A DNA stretch of 37,572 nt, taken from contig BDTD01000016.1 in NCBI GenBank assembly GCA_002897635.1, positions 1-37,572 on the forward strand, written 5' to 3'. The position numbers and the translations under genes are program-made. The notes beneath the pieces were generated by a model. The model was not told the origin of the DNA and made no database searches. It was given only the letters and a program-made list of their open reading frames with translations. Origin of the DNA: a bacterium BMS3Abin11. Lineage in GTDB: Bacteria > Pseudomonadota > Gammaproteobacteria > BMS3Bbin11. Position 1 is the stretch's first letter. Every line of letters starts with the position of its first letter. This document shows, one piece after another, positions 491 to 8,292 of this stretch.

Positions 491-778
491 TTATATTATC
501 TTTCGTCGGATCAGTTTCCCTATCACTTGCGAAGCTGATATTGCCGAATCGGCATTTTCGGCAATATCAGCGCGGGTGACATAATGAAGACCGCCTTTGC
601 GTGGATAGCAACCAATCAGCCGGTGGGCAATTAGCCTGTTATTGTGAGCGCGTTTTATCAGGATATCGCCAGGTAAATATATCCGCTGCCTGCTGACCTG
701 AATAACCGCACCATCATTAATCAGCGGTATCATACAGATACCGCTAATTCGTACCTTAAATGGTGCCTCATCAGCCAA
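491..778 (-). CDS. S26-like peptidase with Cys in place of Ser, left copy
   Basis: This 95-residue protein resembles the signal peptidase/LexA-type fold. It has SGICMIP (Cys15 where the family has its catalytic Ser), PGDIL, AHRLIG (His52) and then Asp71 and Asp77. The spacing Cys-37-His-19-Asp-6-Asp is identical to that in the paralogue at 7478-7906. The His rather than Lys recalls the SipW/ER-type signal peptidases. The only in-frame start before the motif is TTG at 778, because a stop codon lies just upstream, and no ribosome binding site is visible. Compared with the right copy it lacks about eight N-terminal residues and a C-terminal tail, so it may be slightly truncated. Processing of a peptide or protein is inferred, not shown. 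Confidence 0.65.
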   Translation of the reverse strand: MADEAPFKVRISGICMIPLINDGAVIQVSRQRIYLPGDILIKRAHNNRLIAHRLIGCYPRKGGLHYVTRADIAENADSAISASQVIGKLIRRKII

Positions 779-850: not shown

Positions 851-974
851 TTGGGGGTCAGCCATTGGTTTCTGTATTGATAATTATCGATTAGCGGCTA
901 TAATCAGCTTACGAACGGTATGTTGGTGAACCGTTTTTTTTGAGGTAAGGGTATAAAAAATGACCTGACCCCAA
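851..974. repeat. Short inverted-repeat element with GGGGTCA ends
   Basis: TTGGGGGTCA (851-860) is mirrored by TGACCCCAA (966-974), about 120 bases apart. The ends are followed by near-identical direct copies of ATTGGTTTCTG and AATGGTTTCTG. The same GGGGTC/GACCCC motif recurs at 7922-7947, at the transposase remnant, and at 37432-37437. I infer a small non-autonomous element or solo remnant. Confidence 0.5.
877..904 (+). promoter_or_regulatory. Probable sigma70 promoter of the C25/RiPP-like operon
   Basis: TTGATA (877-882) and a perfect TATAAT (899-904) are separated by 16 bases. They point toward the C25 peptidase gene at 1081, which would give a 5' untranslated region of about 170 bases. 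The promoter lies inside the inverted-repeat element at 851-974. Confidence 0.55.
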
Positions 975-1080: not shown

Positions 1081-4000
1081 ATGGATCGATGTATTCAATC
1101 ACAAATGAAAGCGCTTGGAATATCGAAAACGATCCGAGTTCTTGGCCTGGTTGTTATGCTGGCCGCTCAACTTGCGCTAGTGAATACGCCTGCCCGTGCG
1201 GCCACCATCGCCCCTGACACGTTTGTAGACGAATATGGTACAGGTGCCAGTTGTTCGCTACGTGAGGCAATTCAGTCGATAAATTCCGGCGCTGATTTCG
1301 ACGGGTGTACTGCGACTGGTGTCTATGGCACTTCCGACACGATTAATCTGGCCACGGGCACCTATCTTTTAAGCCTGGCGTCTACGGGAGCCGGGAATAA
1401 CGGCGGTGACCTTGATATAACCACAAACGTGACGCTGAACGGGTTTGGTGGGAACCTGAGTGGCACGATAATCGATGCCCAGAATTTGTTCCGGGTCATC
1501 GAGGTCAATAATGGTCCAAAAAATGTGATATTCAATGACATCGTGTTTACCCGTGGATTAGGAAATAACACGAACTATAGGGGTGCTGGAATCAATGTGC
1601 GGAATGCTACGCTGACTATTAACAGATCCCGGATCTCGGAAAATGTGAATTCAGGGAGCCAAGGTGCAGGTGGCATCGGTGTTAGTGGTGGAAGTGGTAA
1701 CCTGACTGTCAATGATAGTTTGATCTTTGGTAATACCAATGCTTCTACTATCGTCGGTGCTGGTATAGACGTAAATGGAGGTACTCTTTCAATCACAAAC
1801 AGCACATTCAGCGGCAATATTGGTACTGGCCCTGATCTGTATACCTACAGTTATGGTTCAGGTTCTGCGACTATTGCGCACGTCACGATGACAGATACTA
1901 TAAATACTGCCAATAATTTTGATGGGAATTATGCCGCTGTATTTTTAAACAGCATCCTCAACGACGGTTGCACCAGGGAAGTTACAGACAATGGGTACAA
2001 CCGGTTTGCAGGCACTGCGTGTGTTGGTACGCTAGCCGCCACAAGTCAGGAAAATATCACACCCGTAGTATTCCCCGCACTGGCATTGAACGGCGGTACT
2101 ACCGGGAACCACGCCATCGACAATACTACAACGCTGTTATACGACCAGATCCCGTCTGGCAGCAATGGCTGCGGTACTACCTACACTAAAGACCAGCGTG
2201 GTGCTACCCGGCCAGACACAGTAAACAATAGCAACTGTGACATCGGCGCATTCGAATACGATCCCACCTTTACCCAGGCAGTGATCACCGCCTTTCGCGC
2301 ATTGACGACATCGGGTGGTACGGTATTGGAGTGGGAAACGGGCAGCGAAGTCGGCACGGCCGGCTTTTACGTCAAACGGCGTGACAGGACGAAGAAACGT
2401 TTCGTTCGCGTCAACGACGAGCTGGTGCCGTCGGTGGGTGTCCCGCAGGGCGGTACTTACCGGATAATCGACCCAAAGGCTGTGTCGGGCGAGAGCTATC
2501 GCTACAAGCTGGTTGAACTGGAGTACAGCGGCAAGAAGAACCGCTATGGACCCTACGAGGTAACGGTAGACGGTGAGGGTTATGGTCGTGAAGATCCTGA
2601 GGGTGAAAAACCTCCTGTACCGGTGGGCGTTACCTCAAGCGCATTGGAACACCGACCCTCAAAAGCAAAACGCAAGCATTCACACGCCAACCATGAAGCC
2701 CGCAAGGCGGCACGTAAAGCGAAGCGTAAAAAGCATAAAGGCTCTGCCCTGAAGCTGGGCGTCCAGGAAGCCGGCCTGTATTTTGTCAGTACTGCCGAAA
2801 TGGCCACCGCATTTGGTGTCCCGGAGGCCCGCGTGCAACGTCAATTACGCCGCGGCCGTTTGAAGCTTAAGAACCGGGGTGAAACGGTTGCCTGGCATGC
2901 CGCAGAAGACATTAGCGGTCTGTATTTCTATGGTGAAGCCATCGACAGTCCGTTCACACGGGACAACGTGTACTGGATCAAGAGGGGCAAGGGCCTGATG
3001 ATGGCCGAAGCCGATGGAGGTGCCCCTGCGCCAGTATCGGGTCAGTCGTTCCTCGACGAGGCAGTGTTCGAGGAGGATCGAATCCCTGCGACAGCGATCA
3101 CATCGGATCCTGACAGCGATTACTGGTACTGGAAACGAATCCTGGCCGGCCTGGCAGGATGGGAGACGGCAAGTTTTGACCTGCCAGTAAAGGGGGTTGC
3201 GGACAGCAATGCAACACTGACCATTCATCTCAAGGGTGCCGGTCTGGCGGGATTTGGTAAGTCCTTTGAAGTCGAAGTCGCGCTCAACGGTATCGTGGTT
3301 GGTGGTGAGAGTTGGTCGGGTACGGAGCCAGTAGCACTGGAGATCCCGGTAACCTTACAGGCGGGCAATAACCAGGTGGTAGTGACTGGCCTGAACAAGG
3401 CGGGCGCAGACCCTGCCTATATCCTTGTTGATAGCATCGATGTACGCTACCAACGTCAATACGAAGCGGTTGCTGGTGAGTTGACCCTGCGCGGGGATGG
3501 CAATGATGTAGTAACAGTATCTGGTGTAGACGGGATACTGCCCCGTGTGCTGGACATCAGCGTGCCGAAAACGCCGGTCTGGCTGAGGAACATCACTGCT
3601 GACAGTACGACGACGAGTTTTGTGCCCGGGGCTCCGGAACGTACTTACCTTGTGGCTGATAGCAGCGCAGTAAAGACACCGGCATGGCTAGTAGCTGATG
3701 TAGCCACCAGGTACCGAAAACGGGGTGTCAAAGCCGAGTATCTGGTGATCGCACCTACTGAATGGACAGAGGCAGCCCAGGCGCTGGCCGATCTGCGTAC
3801 TGGCAGTGGACTTAGCACGGCAGTCGTCGCGCTGGAAGATATCTACGACGAAATGTCGGATGGAATTGCGACGCCACATGCGATCAAGGATTTCCTTGCG
3901 CGGATGTACCGTAAAGGCCACGGTCGGTTGAAGTATGTCGTGCTACTGGGTGAAGGCAGTATGGATTATCGTGACCTGCTGGGGAATGGAGACAGTATTG

Positions 4001-4971
4001 TACCACCCTGGATGGCAGGGACGCCGAGCGGGCTGTTTGCATCGGACCTGGGTTATGGGGACGTGAAAGGCACAGTAGCTCCGGAGATCGTAGTGTCGCG
4101 AATACCAGTGGAATCGGAGCAGGAAATTGCCGATTATGTAGCGAAGCTGGTTGCGCATGAGGGATCTGGGCTGGACAAGGTCGTTGTACTCGCCGATGTA
4201 GCGGACATCGCGGGTAATTTCCCTGCGGATGCTGAGGCCATTGCGACGATGTTGCCGTCTGGGGTACCTGTGGATCGTATCTACGTTCAGGATGCACCGC
4301 CGTACTCGTCACCCTATTACTCTTTTGCGGATGCACGCACACGGTTGCATGCGGCGTTTTCCGAGGGGGTGGGTTTGATCAACTATAGCGGCCATGCAGG
4401 CATACGGGTTATGGGATCTACCGGCCTGTTGCGTGATTCAGATATCGCGGGACTGGGCAACGCCGGGCAGTATCCAGTGCTGCTGGCACTGACCTGTGTG
4501 CTGAACCGTTTTGACCTTGCGGGCTTCGACTCACTGGGTGAGCAACTTGTGCTGAGTCCTGTGGCGGGTGCAGTGGCTGTGCTGGCCCCATCGGGATTGT
4601 CGATCGACAGTGCCGCACAGCTTTTAAACCAGGCGCTGATGCGGGCTATTTATGGCCATGGCGATGCCATACTTGGTGATGTTATTCTGCGTGCGCTTGA
4701 TGAGTATGTTGACAGTGGCCAGACCCCCTACATGGCAGCTATCTACAACCTGCTTGGTGATCCGTATGTAAGGCTGAATATTACACAGACAGACCCGACT
4801 TTAAAATCGGCTGACGCTTCGTCAGACCGTAAAAGATCACGAAAGAGGGAACGAAAAAGAGCTCGTCAGAACAGACTGAAAAACCATCATCAGAATAGAA
4901 TCGAACGGCAACGCCAGAATAGAGTCGAAAGCCGACGTGAGAGCGGAATAAGGGTTCTGCCAGATGACTGA
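1081..4971 (+). CDS. Secreted C25 (gingipain-like) cysteine peptidase with N-terminal beta-helix
   Basis: This protein of 1296 residues starts with a signal peptide (hydrophobic LGLVVMLAAQLAL, then a likely cut after ARA). Residues about 58-395 form a CSLREA-type parallel beta-helix: CSLREAI at the start and a closing DQRG...RP...CDIGAFE motif. An Fn3-like module follows (about 400-500), then a Lys/Arg/His-rich linker (about 523-553). The C25 domain covers about 886-1232. Its likely catalytic His1105 is in NYSGHAG and its Cys1139 in LTCVLNRFD, a spacing like that of gingipains. The end is an Arg-rich tail with QNR repeats. ATG 1081 is preferred over TTG 1078 because TTAGGAGC lies seven bases upstream. 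The stop overlaps the start of the small peptide gene. I infer a role as exported maturation protease or as target of the downstream modification genes. Confidence 0.85.
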   Translation: MDRCIQSQMKALGISKTIRVLGLVVMLAAQLALVNTPARAATIAPDTFVDEYGTGASCSLREAIQSINSGADFDGCTATGVYGTSDTINLATGTYLLSLASTGAGNNGGDLDITTNVTLNGFGGNLSGTIIDAQNLFRVIEVNNGPKNVIFNDIVFTRGLGNNTNYRGAGINVRNATLTINRSRISENVNSGSQGAGGIGVSGGSGNLTVNDSLIFGNTNASTIVGAGIDVNGGTLSITNSTFSGNIGTGPDLYTYSYGSGSATIAHVTMTDTINTANNFDGNYAAVFLNSILNDGCTREVTDNGYNRFAGTACVGTLAATSQENITPVVFPALALNGGTTGNHAIDNTTTLLYDQIPSGSNGCGTTYTKDQRGATRPDTVNNSNCDIGAFEYDPTFTQAVITAFRALTTSGGTVLEWETGSEVGTAGFYVKRRDRTKKRFVRVNDELVPSVGVPQGGTYRIIDPKAVSGESYRYKLVELEYSGKKNRYGPYEVTVDGEGYGREDPEGEKPPVPVGVTSSALEHRPSKAKRKHSHANHEARKAARKAKRKKHKGSALKLGVQEAGLYFVSTAEMATAFGVPEARVQRQLRRGRLKLKNRGETVAWHAAEDISGLYFYGEAIDSPFTRDNVYWIKRGKGLMMAEADGGAPAPVSGQSFLDEAVFEEDRIPATAITSDPDSDYWYWKRILAGLAGWETASFDLPVKGVADSNATLTIHLKGAGLAGFGKSFEVEVALNGIVVGGESWSGTEPVALEIPVTLQAGNNQVVVTGLNKAGADPAYILVDSIDVRYQRQYEAVAGELTLRGDGNDVVTVSGVDGILPRVLDISVPKTPVWLRNITADSTTTSFVPGAPERTYLVADSSAVKTPAWLVADVATRYRKRGVKAEYLVIAPTEWTEAAQALADLRTGSGLSTAVVALEDIYDEMSDGIATPHAIKDFLARMYRKGHGRLKYVVLLGEGSMDYRDLLGNGDSIVPPWMAGTPSGLFASDLGYGDVKGTVAPEIVVSRIPVESEQEIADYVAKLVAHEGSGLDKVVVLADVADIAGNFPADAEAIATMLPSGVPVDRIYVQDAPPYSSPYYSFADARTRLHAAFSEGVGLINYSGHAGIRVMGSTGLLRDSDIAGLGNAGQYPVLLALTCVLNRFDLAGFDSLGEQLVLSPVAGAVAVLAPSGLSIDSAAQLLNQALMRAIYGHGDAILGDVILRALDEYVDSGQTPYMAAIYNLLGDPYVRLNITQTDPTLKSADASSDRKRSRKRERKRARQNRLKNHHQNRIERQRQNRVESRRESGIRVLPDD

Positions 4972-5161
4972 TCAGGATGTTCAGAATAGGAAACCGTATA
5001 CAGGCACTTCATTGGCAGGTATCGAGGGGCGGCGTCTGCCCTATATATCACCAAAAATCCTGTCACGGGAAAAGCTTGAATCTATTGCTGGACTCTGCAC
5101 CAAGTCGACGGCAGGGGTTTTTACATGTGATCCAGTCAATGGTGGTGTAGTCAGCTCATGA
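4964..5161 (+). CDS. Candidate RiPP precursor peptide
   Basis: This 65-residue peptide sits between the C25 gene and the PqqD-like gene, overlapping both (its ATG lies in the C25 stop region; its stop overlaps the next ATG). An AGGG ribosome binding site lies nine bases upstream. The middle part, RLPYISPKI then SREKLESIAG, looks like the Tyr/Pro/Ile...Glu-x-Leu-Glu leader motif of peptides paired with PqqD domains and radical SAM enzymes. The C-terminal core carries Cys45 and Cys55, a GVFTCDPVNGG stretch and a terminal Ser-Ser. No signal peptide or membrane segment is visible. I know no exact homologue. The precursor role is inferred from size, motif and position, and the modification is unknown. 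Confidence 0.65.
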   Translation: MTDQDVQNRKPYTGTSLAGIEGRRLPYISPKILSREKLESIAGLCTKSTAGVFTCDPVNGGVVSS

Positions 5162-5487
5162 GAATGTCGAAAGAAGCTGAAAAAGATGCCGATGTGCACA
5201 GCAGGCAATTGTCTGCTATTAGATTGGGCCTACATATCCGTTGGCGCAAGGTTGGCGATGAAGGTGTTGTACTGAATCAGGACAAAGGTGAAGTACTGGT
5301 TCTAAACGCGCTGGGTACTCACATCATTGAGTTGCTTGGTCAGGGACTGAATACTGGTCAACTCAATGATGCCTTGCTCCCCGAATATGATATCGACCGA
5401 TCCACGCTGGAAGCGGATATTGAGTGTTTCCTGCACGAACTGGTTGAGACTGGCGTAGCAAATATCCCTTGGCGGGGGGGGGTGTGA
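5158..5487 (+). CDS. PqqD-family peptide-binding (RRE) protein
   Basis: This 109-residue protein matches the PqqD fold. After a charged N-terminal extension it has a beta-rich stretch with GVVLNQDKGEVLVLNALGTHI (about 36-56), then helices with LEADIECFLHELVETGV (about 84-100). PqqD domains bind the leader of a precursor peptide and present it to a radical SAM enzyme; a candidate precursor and such an enzyme are the immediate neighbours. Its start overlaps the precursor stop (ATGA), and its TGA directly abuts the ATG of the radical SAM gene in the same frame. A run of nine G (5474-5482) lies in the last codons. Classification is confident; the peptide partner is inferred. Confidence 0.85.
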   Translation: MRMSKEAEKDADVHSRQLSAIRLGLHIRWRKVGDEGVVLNQDKGEVLVLNALGTHIIELLGQGLNTGQLNDALLPEYDIDRSTLEADIECFLHELVETGVANIPWRGGV

Positions 5488-6534
5488 ATGCACTACGGTG
5501 ACCTGGTAGAGCGTCTTTATCGTGAGAACAAGCTGTTCTCTGTTCTGTTGGAATTGACCTACCGCTGCAACCTCGACTGTTTCATTTGCTACAACGATCG
5601 TGAGCGAGCAGGCAAACCCTTATCTCTTGATCAGTACTATCAACTCCTGCAGGATCTTAATGAAATGCAGGTGATGAATATCACTTTGTCCGGTGGCGAG
5701 CCGCTGGCACACCCGGATTTCTGGAAGATCGGTGCACGCGGGCGAGCACGGGGCTTTGTCATGCGCATCAAGTCGAACGGTCATGCATTGAGACCAGAGG
5801 TGATCCAGCGCCTGCAGAAAGAAATTGACCCGTATAGTGTAGAAATCAGCCTGCACGGTGCGACGGCAGAAACTCATGACCGGCAGACAAGGAGTCCTGG
5901 CAGCTTTATGCAACTGAGACAAAACCTGCTGCACATGAAAAAAGCAGGGTTGAGAGTTCAGCTCAACTGTCCATTGACTCGCTGGGCTGAGCCAGAGGTC
6001 GAGATGATATACGAGATAGCCGATGAACTGGGTTATCCCCTGATCTTCGATTCACATATCACGCCCCGTGACAATGGTGACAAAGAACCCCAGTCGATTG
6101 CTCCGACCGATGAAGGTCTGCGAAAGCTGTTTCATCTTCAGAAAATACGTGGTGCACTTGTCGAACCGGTTTGCGGGAATGATCAGTCGAATACCCAGAC
6201 GGCTGAACGAAAGCACTGCGGAACAGGCTCGATGACACTGGCTATTGACCCATACGGCACTGTCTACCCCTGTGTGGCCTTACGACGCCCGGCAGGATCA
6301 CTTCATGAACATTCCGTAACTGAAATCTGGGATGAATCTATTGCCCTGAAAGGTATTCGAAAACTGGCTATTGAAGCGGCAAGTAATGTGGCATCGTTGG
6401 GACCGTACACAGCGATGGGAGGGTTTTGCCCTGGTCTGTCGGATATGCTCTGTGGCGACCCGGCTACCGTGCATCCTGGCGTCATCCACGTTGGGCAACT
6501 GAAGAGGGATTGCCTGAAAGACGATAGTATCTAG
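5488..6534 (+). CDS. Radical SAM/SPASM peptide-modifying enzyme
   Basis: This 348-residue protein has the radical SAM motif C27-N-L-D-C31-F-I-C34 for the 4Fe-4S cluster and the SAM-binding LSGGEPL (residues 68-74). The C-terminal half has six further cysteines (229, 244, 262, 314, 322, 342) with the SPASM-like pattern HCGTGSMT, YPCVALRR, TEIW, FCPG and LCGD, which should bind auxiliary clusters. SPASM enzymes next to PqqD proteins usually install thioether or carbon-carbon links in ribosomal peptides. Here the peptide at 4964-5161 has two cysteines that could serve. The gene starts directly after the PqqD stop, so the two are translationally coupled. It ends 13 bases before the convergent kinase gene. 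The exact reaction cannot be read from the sequence. Confidence 0.88.
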   Translation: MHYGDLVERLYRENKLFSVLLELTYRCNLDCFICYNDRERAGKPLSLDQYYQLLQDLNEMQVMNITLSGGEPLAHPDFWKIGARGRARGFVMRIKSNGHALRPEVIQRLQKEIDPYSVEISLHGATAETHDRQTRSPGSFMQLRQNLLHMKKAGLRVQLNCPLTRWAEPEVEMIYEIADELGYPLIFDSHITPRDNGDKEPQSIAPTDEGLRKLFHLQKIRGALVEPVCGNDQSNTQTAERKHCGTGSMTLAIDPYGTVYPCVALRRPAGSLHEHSVTEIWDESIALKGIRKLAIEAASNVASLGPYTAMGGFCPGLSDMLCGDPATVHPGVIHVGQLKRDCLKDDSI

Positions 6535-6547
6535 TTTTCCGGTAGCC

Positions 6548-7477
6548 TTACACTGGTGAAGTTAATAGTTCAGTAAATCGTCCATCCTGGCTAAAATGAA
6601 GTAAGGTACGGTGACAATGATTAAGAACTGAAAGATGATTGTCCATCAGTCTGTCCAGCCGTATGGGGTCCTGGTTAACGAAGGGTGAATTTGCGATGAG
6701 CAAAGCCAGCAGGTTCCCCTTGTTGATTGGTGCTATAGAATTTTTCTCATCCTTTACGATCCGGCATATGAGCCCCAGGGGGTATCGGTTCCCTCGGCTG
6801 GAGCCGCTACGGAAGGTGCCGGTAAACGGAACCTTCTCGACAAATATGCCATCGTCTGCTGGAAGCAAGGCATTCAGGTCATCGCTGAGTATCGGAAAAC
6901 CCTGCAGATTGCACAGCGATGCTATTGTGGACTTTCCCGCACCCGAATGTCCCACGAACACCCACGCCTGATTCTCATGCCCAACGACGCCGGCACTATG
7001 TAGTAATACTCCACCCAGTTCCAGCAGGCGGTAGGCAACGAGATTTCGAAAGAAATTCTCAAAGACGATACCCGGAAACCAGTGATGATCATTGAGTGGT
7101 GTCCACATGGAAGCAGAGATGCTACCTGAAAGGTTCAAGTGTGCGGCAAAGTAAATCCCTGCGACCTGAACTGATTTTTGCTGGTATTCGTAATCCATCG
7201 ATTCATAGACCCCGCCGCCTGTTTTACCGTGGAGGCTAAATTTCTCTTCATCTATACGACCAATACGAGAATCTACGAAGGGTTTATCACCATGATAGGA
7301 AGTTATACAGCAATCACTAAAATGTGATTGCAACGCTACAGCCTGTGATCGACTTAAACCAGTAAAGCGATAAGGTCCCCCGACAAAGTCGATGATGATT
7401 GTGTCGTCACCCCATAGGACAATATTGTCTGGATCCGGAAAATTGTCCGGATCCTTCAGAAAGGGTTCGTGACTCAT
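6548..7477 (-). CDS. HPr-kinase-like P-loop protein, right copy
   Basis: This 309-residue protein has LLHSAGVVG followed by a Walker A motif GHSGAGKS (176-183) and LSDDLNALL (197-205), the arrangement of the HprK/PEPCK-type kinase core. The N-terminal 150 residues (FVGGPYRFTGLS and so on) match the partial protein at 1-457 but not classical HPr kinase. No PTS genes are nearby, so carbon regulation is unlikely. HprK-like proteins occur in peptide-maturation clusters, and one (in the paeninodin lasso cluster) phosphorylates a C-terminal Ser of the precursor. The gene begins right after the stop of the peptidase-like gene (TAG then ATG) and is convergent with the radical SAM gene. Peptide kinase activity is an inference. 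Confidence 0.75.
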   Translation of the reverse strand: MSHEPFLKDPDNFPDPDNIVLWGDDTIIIDFVGGPYRFTGLSRSQAVALQSHFSDCCITSYHGDKPFVDSRIGRIDEEKFSLHGKTGGGVYESMDYEYQQKSVQVAGIYFAAHLNLSGSISASMWTPLNDHHWFPGIVFENFFRNLVAYRLLELGGVLLHSAGVVGHENQAWVFVGHSGAGKSTIASLCNLQGFPILSDDLNALLPADDGIFVEKVPFTGTFRSGSSRGNRYPLGLICRIVKDEKNSIAPINKGNLLALLIANSPFVNQDPIRLDRLMDNHLSVLNHCHRTLLHFSQDGRFTELLTSPV

Positions 7478-7906
7478 CTATCTACTGTTTTGGTGCAGGA
7501 GGGAAGGAATTCTTGAGAGCATATACCAGTTGAACTTCGCGAAAGACCTGAAGCGTTGCAGAAGAGGAATGTTGAAGGTGTTGGTGTGACATGCACCACC
7601 TATTACCTTACCTAGTACCTGATTGATAGTAATTGCGCTATCTGGTCTGGATCCAGAATCCGGCTGCGTCAAATATCGTATCTCACCATGACGACGATAA
7701 AAAGCAAGCAAACGATGCGATACTAATTGCCTGTCCCATCGCCGAAAAACAATAATATCACCCGGCCAGTACATTTTCTCTGGGCTTATATACAGACATG
7801 CTCCATCACTGAACAGTGGTGCCATACAGTCGCCACTTACCGTAACCGGTATTGGCTGCTCATCTGCAAATGAGCGCAGGGATTTGTCAATTTGCTCTAG
7901 ATTCAT
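7478..7906 (-). CDS. S26-like peptidase with Cys in place of Ser, right copy
   Basis: This 142-residue protein has VSGDCMAP (Cys27), WPGDIIVF (Gly49-Asp50), VSHRLL (His64) and TQPDSGSRPDS (Asp83, Asp89). The order equals the boxes of SipW/ER-type signal peptidases, but the Ser nucleophile is replaced by Cys. A C-terminal tail of about 35 residues (FNIPLLQRF...WYMLSRIPSLL) is absent from the left paralogue and may be amphipathic. No N-terminal membrane anchor is visible, so it is probably cytoplasmic or peripheral. It is the first gene of a two-gene minus-strand operon with the HprK-like gene. A cysteine peptidase acting on the local peptide, or an inactive binding protein, are both possible. 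Confidence 0.7.
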   Translation of the reverse strand: MNLEQIDKSLRSFADEQPIPVTVSGDCMAPLFSDGACLYISPEKMYWPGDIIVFRRWDRQLVSHRLLAFYRRHGEIRYLTQPDSGSRPDSAITINQVLGKVIGGACHTNTFNIPLLQRFRSFAKFNWYMLSRIPSLLHQNSR

Positions 7907-7921
7907 CTCACAAGTCTATCG

Positions 7922-8292
7922 AATTAAAGGGGTCAATTAAAGGGGTCGGTGACAAATGGGAATCATTTCATGCGAAAAGACCCTATTCGCATCGCATCGG
8001 ATTATATTGATTTGATATAGTATGCCAACACTCAAGGAAGAGTGGAACTATTAAAATAAGGAGGTTATCTATGCCACGAAAGCCACGTGCGTACGTTGCA
8101 GGTTTACCCTGTCATGTAATTCAACGTGGAAACAATCATTCAGATTGTTTCTTCTCGAATGAAGACTATCACATATTTCTTAATTATCTGGATGATGCCT
8201 GCCAGCGTTATGACGTTGCATTGCATACCTATGTATTAATGAAGAACGGTTATATGCCAAATGAAAGTGACCATTAATTGACTCCATTAATT
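7922..8292. mobile_element. Deletion derivative of a RAYT-type element with terminal inverted repeats
   Basis: The left end has the 13-mer AATTAAAGGGGTC twice in tandem (7922-7934, 7935-7947). The right end (8268-8292) is an inverted, slightly diverged copy with two AATTAATGG-like units. Between them lies the first third of a REP-associated tyrosine transposase gene. I infer that an internal deletion left the 5' part of the gene and both ends, giving a non-autonomous element. Confidence 0.6.
8071..8277 (+). pseudogene. Truncated REP-associated tyrosine transposase (Y1_Tnp)
   Basis: The 68-codon frame starts MPRKPRAYVAGLPCHVIQRG, the typical N-terminus of TnpA_REP/RAYT proteins, and continues to HTYVLMKN. 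Full-length relatives then read into a His-x-His metal-binding motif (NHVHLL-like) and end near 200 residues or more. Here the sequence changes to GYMPNESDH and stops, so the HUH motif and catalytic Tyr are missing. A strong AAGGAGGT ribosome binding site remains upstream. The product cannot be an active transposase. Confidence 0.85.

Follow-up and report, generated by a model that had tools for sequence, protein, structure and literature searches.

A gammaproteobacterial C25 peptidase gene paired with a predicted RiPP precursor, an LPP-like enzyme set and a radical SAM enzyme

The genes described here, which lie in a stretch of gammaproteobacterial DNA of 37,572 nucleotides (contig BDTD01000016.1 of the BMS3Abin11 assembly GCA_002897635.1; the window), very probably direct the synthesis of a small peptide that carries chemical modifications, as judged from their sequences. 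The reading that we favour, and consider probable, is that of a RiPP pathway that uses the chassis of the LPP (‘linear polyphosphorylated peptide’) systems, with an added radical SAM step and an exported C25 protease as partner. The pairing of C25 and precursor genes recurs among genomes, and no description of it was found in the papers searched. An earlier note on the window had proposed an undescribed operon of four genes encoding a C25 peptidase, a small peptide, a PqqD-like protein and a radical SAM/SPASM enzyme. Their order and joined ends stand (two of the junctions overlap, by 8 nt and 4 nt, and the third abuts exactly), as does the absence of a dedicated ABC transporter, there being no transporter encoded at the locus. 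The extent of the system was drawn correctly for the four genes (1081-6534), but a kinase and an SpI-like peptidase (6548-7906) had been overlooked. As for novelty, the linkage to C25 was not found in the searched papers, but the chassis is that of a described RiPP family, the LPPs.

Table 1. Features of the locus (positions within the window).
Feature	Position	Strand	Evidence and remarks
C25 peptidase gene	1081..4971	+	ATG at 1081; AGGAG ribosome site just upstream
C25 protein			Exported C25-family (gingipain/PorU-like) cysteine peptidase; Pfam PF01364 Peptidase_C25, E=9.6e-72
Predicted RiPP precursor peptide, 65 aa	4964..5161	+	Overlaps C25 stop by 8 nt
Discrete PqqD-type RiPP recognition element (RRE)	5158..5487	+	PF05402, E=3.4e-12; overlaps peptide stop by 4 nt
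Radical SAM enzyme, SPASM-type C-terminal domain	5488..6534	+	PF04055, E=9e-18; PF13186, E=3e-7; abuts PqqD
HprK/PEPCK-fold kinase	6548..7477	-	P-loop GHSGAGKST; SDDLNAL; lies 13 bases past radical SAM gene
SpI-like (SipW/archaeal type) putative leader peptidase	7478..7906	-	TIGR02228, 8e-9, under cut-off
Second, shortened SpI-like protein	491..778	-	SGICM; divergent to C25 gene
Second HprK-like kinase, cut by contig end	2..457	-	36% identical to first kinase; divergent to C25 gene
Best sigma-70-like site before C25 operon	877..904	+	11/12 matches
Best sigma-70-like site before SpI-like/kinase operon	8001..8028	-	11/12 matches

The kinase and SpI-like genes form an abutting pair that is convergent with the four genes of the plus strand (Table 1). 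Sigma-70-like sites can be proposed ahead of both operons, and their count in the region is no higher than in shuffled sequence. With the second kinase and the second SpI-like protein, at least parts of two such systems are present in the window genome. Elsewhere in this genome, contig C27 has genes for an ABC exporter and for an NTP_transf_5 protein at 21-26 kb from a second precursor gene, as well as glycosyltransferase genes at 21 kb or more from it; all of these are only candidates for a link to the pathway. Contig C33 carries a separate set of PqqD-like, HprK-like and NTP_transf_5 genes (L051, 1646-4612) that resembles the HprK-related system; no precursor was recognised in it. Beside the SpI-like gene of the window is a remnant (8071-8277, plus strand) that by eye resembles a REP-associated transposase, and a longer remnant of the same look is found beside an SpI-like/C25 pair in genome G057 (L079, 8275-9186).

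Is the small frame a genuine precursor gene? Its conservation indicates that it is, and its product is very likely the precursor that the PqqD-like protein and the radical SAM enzyme handle. Seven copies occur in six genomes, two of them in the window's own genome, and 11-12 positions are invariant, including Y, P, I, S, E, L, E, A, C, C and S. The leader would run to A42, with the motif Y27xxP30xI32LS34xE36xL38E39, and the predicted core is GLCTKSTAGVFTCDPVNGGVVSS. In the only unsaturated pair of precursors, dN is 0.13 versus a dS of 0.50. Pfam has no family for the window precursor, and NCBIfam has none for any copy tested. A peptide profile built from the window copy and four of the six further loci matches at all six (E 1e-31 to 1e-11). 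It re-finds the small genes of G186, G326, G227 and G110 at E=1e-31 to 1e-21; the copies on contig C27 and in G369 are outside the profile yet matched by it. The family rests on six genomes, and those named are metagenome-assembled. Weak matches in G340 and G244 were set aside as antisense to a housekeeping gene, and the remaining matches above E=0.01 are most likely due to chance.

The predicted cores have 19-24 residues in all seven copies and share the pattern xxC-(9-13, one Lys)-C-(5-9)-Ser, in which the two Cys stand at +3 and at +13 to +17 and every core ends in Ser. The sole basic residue of each core is the Lys between the two Cys (7/7). As this Lys pattern was noticed post hoc, among seven related sequences, it is a lead rather than a result.

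The second precursor of the window genome (YTTPKILSREHLEAMA followed by VICSGPTAKADVITCSGGPIGS) is encoded directly behind a PqqD gene (L042, contig C27, 1-4864). Its gene is divergent from that of a C25-type protein, which the contig end truncates, and faces the gene of an exported protein with RCC1 repeats. This assembly contains no further match to the radical SAM enzyme. A joining of contigs C16 and C27 at their broken ends, which would link both loci, was considered and dropped, as a check for direct overlap found none. Peptides of 30 residues with the same leader motif (MKKAYQKPVLLKRERLSAVTAVCTPSTCPV) are present in a distant proteobacterial family (L076 of G429 and L077 of G409), where they adjoin a 343-aa dehydrogenase-like gene; they were rejected as family members, since they have the Y..P..L leader motif of the precursors but different neighbours.

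The radical SAM enzyme carries the sequence CNLDCFIC and three conserved auxiliary Cys residues (244, 262 and 314), and is conserved in six genomes. Its best profile is the mycofactocin maturase, with every NCBIfam maturase profile far under its cut-off. A search of plasmids for relatives at E 1e-30 returned none. The kinase matches HprK_rel_A at 7e-7, under cut-off, and no Pfam family above cut-off. An AlphaFold model made with eight homologues (pLDDT 86) resembles ATP-PEPCK and HPr kinase structures. The profiles of the HprK-related kinase A system, TIGR04352 and TIGR04353, score 28.6 against 200 bits for the kinase and 26.2 against 35 bits for PqqD, which places the locus outside that system. 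The SpI-like protein resembles profiles of archaeal signal peptidase I and of SipW, under their cut-offs; its family profile matches SEC11 chains at 6e-6, and no membrane helix was seen by eye in the window protein. Of seven aligned copies, six carry Cys at the position of the catalytic Ser (SGDCM in the window), and that of G369 carries Ser (TGASM); the SpI-like protein of G326, too, has Cys. His64 and an Asp are conserved. Because the Ser position is mostly Cys while the His and Asp columns of the alignment are invariant, Cys is likely the nucleophile.

The C25 protein has a Sec signal peptide that ends in NTPARA, ahead of AT (judged by eye from the first 40 residues). The N-terminal region scores above the cut-off of the NCBIfam choice-of-anchor Q family and just under that of the CSLREA profile (23.7 against 25). 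The C25 module covers approximately residues 888-1233 (counted from TTG 1078), and the C-terminal tail is basic. The catalytic His/Cys pair (codons ~4393 and ~4495) is conserved and aligns with RgpB, so that both the domain and the catalytic residues that define peptidase family C25 are present; in contrast, the NCBIfam PorU equivalog, at 212.5 against a cut-off of 420 bits, does not include the protein. The regions ahead of the module are CSLREA/choice-of-anchor Q in the window, DUF4347 in G186 and SdrD_B in G326 (on a separate contig, joined by inference), with none recognised in G227. By comparison of the copies, only the C25 module is conserved, and the CSLREA/beta-helix part is not. An AlphaFold model of the C25 protein (pLDDT 54) was set aside. 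In another gammaproteobacterial family there are two C25 genes per genome (L063-L065, L070, L071 and L073), several of them directly behind SdrD_B-type surface-protein-like genes; no precursor or PqqD gene was seen near them.

The class-wide sample comprised 369 genomes. Close relatives of the radical SAM enzyme were found in four other genomes of these (G186, G326, G227 and G110), and precursor, radical SAM and kinase matches fall in the same five genomes. C25, at the cut-off used, occurs in 13, which include all five with a precursor (hypergeometric 2e-8, relatedness ignored). In each of the five the precursor adjoins the C25 gene. The precursor starts within the C25 gene in the window and overlaps the C25 stop as TAATG in G326; the gap from the C25 end to the precursor start is 6 bases in G186 and 41-43 bases in G227 and in G110. 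The last two have peptidase, kinase, PqqD, PqqD and radical SAM genes together in this order, facing the C25-peptide pair. The SpI-like gene abuts or overlaps the kinase gene in the window, G186, G227, G110 and G369, and in G326 the peptidase and PqqD genes are on another contig. NTP_transf_5, a further tailoring gene of LPP and paeninodin clusters, adjoins the C25 gene in G227, and a homologue of this neighbour occupies the corresponding place in G110. The C25-precursor adjacency is the only constant one in the five genomes, and it is kept in three bacterial families.

G369 has the precursor, PqqD, radical SAM enzyme, two kinases and peptidase, and no C25 match in its assembly (92% complete). 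A pathway without C25 makes C25 a partner, not a maturation enzyme. The earlier note's expectation that the small frame is conserved beside PqqD/SPASM genes in relatives is borne out by seven copies in six genomes, and the link to C25, recurring in five genomes of the class sample, is not peculiar to one. Of the co-occurrence of all four genes that the note suggested looking for, the C25-precursor part recurs, but C25, absent in G369, is not obligatory. The note also presented the CSLREA beta-helix as a feature of the system; because the N-terminal regions are not conserved, that emphasis applies to the window copy only. In a further genome, G232 (L078, 5094-10965), a C25 gene with a broken frame is followed by genes for a radical SAM/SPASM enzyme, an SpI-like and PqqD fusion and an HPr-kinase-like protein. 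This C25 is only ~30% identical, and a motif search there gave no convincing Y/W..P precursor. Asparagine-synthase-like genes with discrete PqqD genes are present in two pathway-bearing genomes, G369 (L106, contig C19, 54-5237) and G227 (L107, contig C12, 8408-11995), and C19 also encodes a lasso-type precursor, YHRPQLINWGNLKEITRAG; these genes recall the co-occurrence of LPP and lasso systems in Bacilli.

What would these genes do together? According to Popov et al. (2026, PMC13381572), LPP RiPPs are found in Bacillota, as in lppA/K/B/S/D/N of Paenibacillus alginolyticus, and have as their core a kinase, an SpI-like peptidase, a discrete PqqD and a YxxPx[I/V][L/I] leader. The same source describes how the RRE LppB presents the YxxPxVLxHQxIxFET leader to the SpI-like LppS, which relies on Ser29, His68 and Asp93 and cuts after T-1, and how the HprK-like LppK places several phosphates on core Ser3; the clusters carry an MsbA-like transporter and an NTP transferase. 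When the precursors are aligned with the LPP motif by Tyr and Pro, T-1 corresponds to the invariant Ala42 and Ser3 to the invariant Cys45 in all seven. Since the LPP phosphorylation site is Cys here, the kinase must have a shifted or different target. In lasso clusters of the paeninodin type, the residue that the HprK-like kinases phosphorylate is the C-terminal Ser of the precursor (PMC9266682), as is present here.

On this conservation, linkage, fold and family assignment and register, the chemical steps, the cleavage site and the relation to C25 may be read as follows. PqqD would bind the precursor of 65 residues by its YxxPxI leader and hand it to the enzymes. The radical SAM enzyme would modify the core, most probably at Cys 3 and Cys 13, closing a loop that holds the single Lys. 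The HprK-fold kinase would phosphorylate a Ser, the likeliest being the invariant C-terminal one, as in paeninodin, and the SpI-like peptidase, with its probable Cys nucleophile, would cleave after Ala42. In the simplest reading, a Cys has taken the place of the Ser3 site and serves the added radical SAM enzyme. The exported C25 protease would be co-produced with the precursor by way of the overlapping genes, and could act with or on the product beyond the inner membrane; the earlier note had likewise suggested that C25 acts on the exported peptide, and this may be so. Counted against the LPP-like reading were the lack of a transporter at the locus, the Cys in place of Ser3, the peptidase Ser that is mostly Cys and the split arrangement in G326.

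Could the small gene encode instead an unmodified intracellular inhibitor or chaperone of C25, with the PqqD, radical SAM, kinase and SpI-like genes belonging elsewhere? Staphostatins are encoded beside staphopains, and here five genomes have the small gene immediately after one for a cysteine protease, with an overlap in two of them. The peptide, however, has an RRE leader motif beside a discrete RRE; that of G369 lies beside PqqD, radical SAM, kinase and SpI-like genes with no C25, and the second peptide of the window's own genome directly follows a PqqD gene. This makes such an inhibitor highly improbable. A lasso-peptide-like or PQQ-like cofactor pathway in place of an LPP-like one also seems very unlikely. 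The YxxP leader motif and the PqqD family are shared with such pathways, and a mycofactocin maturase is the nearest radical SAM profile, but the low maturase scores, a locus that has neither macrolactam synthetase nor B2 peptidase, and a putative leader peptidase that is SpI-like, as in LPP, all point away from it.

A different question is whether C25 is a mere neighbour in a shared mobile block, with no functional tie. The distribution is patchy, a transposase-like remnant is close by and G369 lacks C25. Yet the C25-precursor adjacency persists in three families while the order and orientation of the other genes vary, and even in G232, with a C25 so distant, the gene is followed by radical SAM/SPASM, SpI-like plus PqqD and HPr-kinase-like genes; we judge a mere neighbour unlikely. 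If C25 is a partner, how might it meet the peptide? The gingipains, relatives of C25, cut their substrates after Lys or Arg, and the core segment GLCTKS presumably resembles Bowman-Birk-type inhibitor loops. Together with the one basic residue in the Cys-Cys loop of all seven cores and C25 and precursor genes that overlap or lie within ~45 bases, this suggests that the modified core forms a constrained, Lys-bearing Cys loop and that C25, if specific for Lys, recognises it; the loop could be an inhibitor, a substrate or, as with PorU, an acyl acceptor. We offer this only tentatively, as the pattern was found after the fact in related sequences, G369 retains the Lys without C25, and the Lys could be a crosslink partner. 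The fuller proposal that the mature RiPP, with a Lys-displaying Cys loop closed by the radical SAM enzyme and a C-terminal phospho-Ser, is a dedicated, co-produced ligand of the exported C25, one that controls the protease or is transferred by it onto surface proteins through PorU-like transpeptidation, is rather doubtful.

The preferred reading, that of an LPP-like RiPP pathway with a radical SAM step and a C25 partner, would extend to Gammaproteobacteria an SpI-peptidase/HprK-kinase chassis so far reported in Bacillota. It would also provide an LPP-like peptide with a candidate partner, a secreted C25 protease, where LPP and paeninodin peptides have no known role. Predictions that follow are cleavage after Ala42, modification of Cys3/Cys13, a C-terminal phosphoserine, a signal-peptidase relative with a Cys nucleophile, and binding to C25.

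How does the locus compare with known systems? In the searched literature, no described system joins C25 with RiPP or radical SAM genes, or an HprK kinase with both PqqD and radical SAM genes. Neither radical SAM nor C25 nor Proteobacteria are mentioned in the main text of Popov et al. (PMC13381572). With gingipains and the T9SS sortase PorU, the window C25 shares the catalytic domain, its His and Cys, and a PorU-like region before the C25 domain, but it differs in its variable N-terminal regions, its gammaproteobacterial host and its linkage to RiPP genes. The PQQ, mycofactocin, GeoRSP and sactipeptide systems similarly have an RRE and a SPASM enzyme acting on a ribosomal peptide, whereas the window proteins fall far under every curated cut-off. 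To our knowledge, neither the kinase nor the SpI-like peptidase is part of those four systems. Sactipeptides and ranthipeptides have a Cys thioether to a backbone or side-chain carbon that their radical SAM enzyme makes; the pair of invariant Cys and the SPASM-type enzyme of the window locus would be compatible with such a bond. The paeninodin cluster (PadeA/K/B1/B2/C) resembles the locus in its discrete PqqD (B1), HprK-like kinase, C-terminal Ser and [Y/W]xxP leader, but the window locus adds a radical SAM enzyme and lacks the macrolactam synthetase and the B2 protease. These two lasso hallmarks were not seen in the window or neighbour genes, nor do the precursors have a conserved Thr at the penultimate leader position, where lasso peptides have Thr (or Ile).

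The closest likeness is to LPP. An SpI-like peptidase stands beside a discrete RRE in the window, G186, G227, G110 and G369, together with an HprK-like kinase and a YxxPx[V/I]L leader whose register agrees with that of LPP as far as the cleavage position, and some relatives of the window locus have an NTP transferase beside the cluster. The window system differs in its added radical SAM enzyme and C25 protease, and in its host, Gammaproteobacteria versus Bacillota. The precursors have Ala in place of Thr at -1 and Cys in place of the phospho-Ser at core 3, most peptidase copies depart from the catalytic triad with Cys for Ser, and the NTP transferase and MsbA-like transporter are both outside the window cluster. 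Because the Ser3 site and the catalytic Ser, both of them tested, are replaced here, the locus should not be classed as LPP, yet by the comparison of its genes it appears to work like one.
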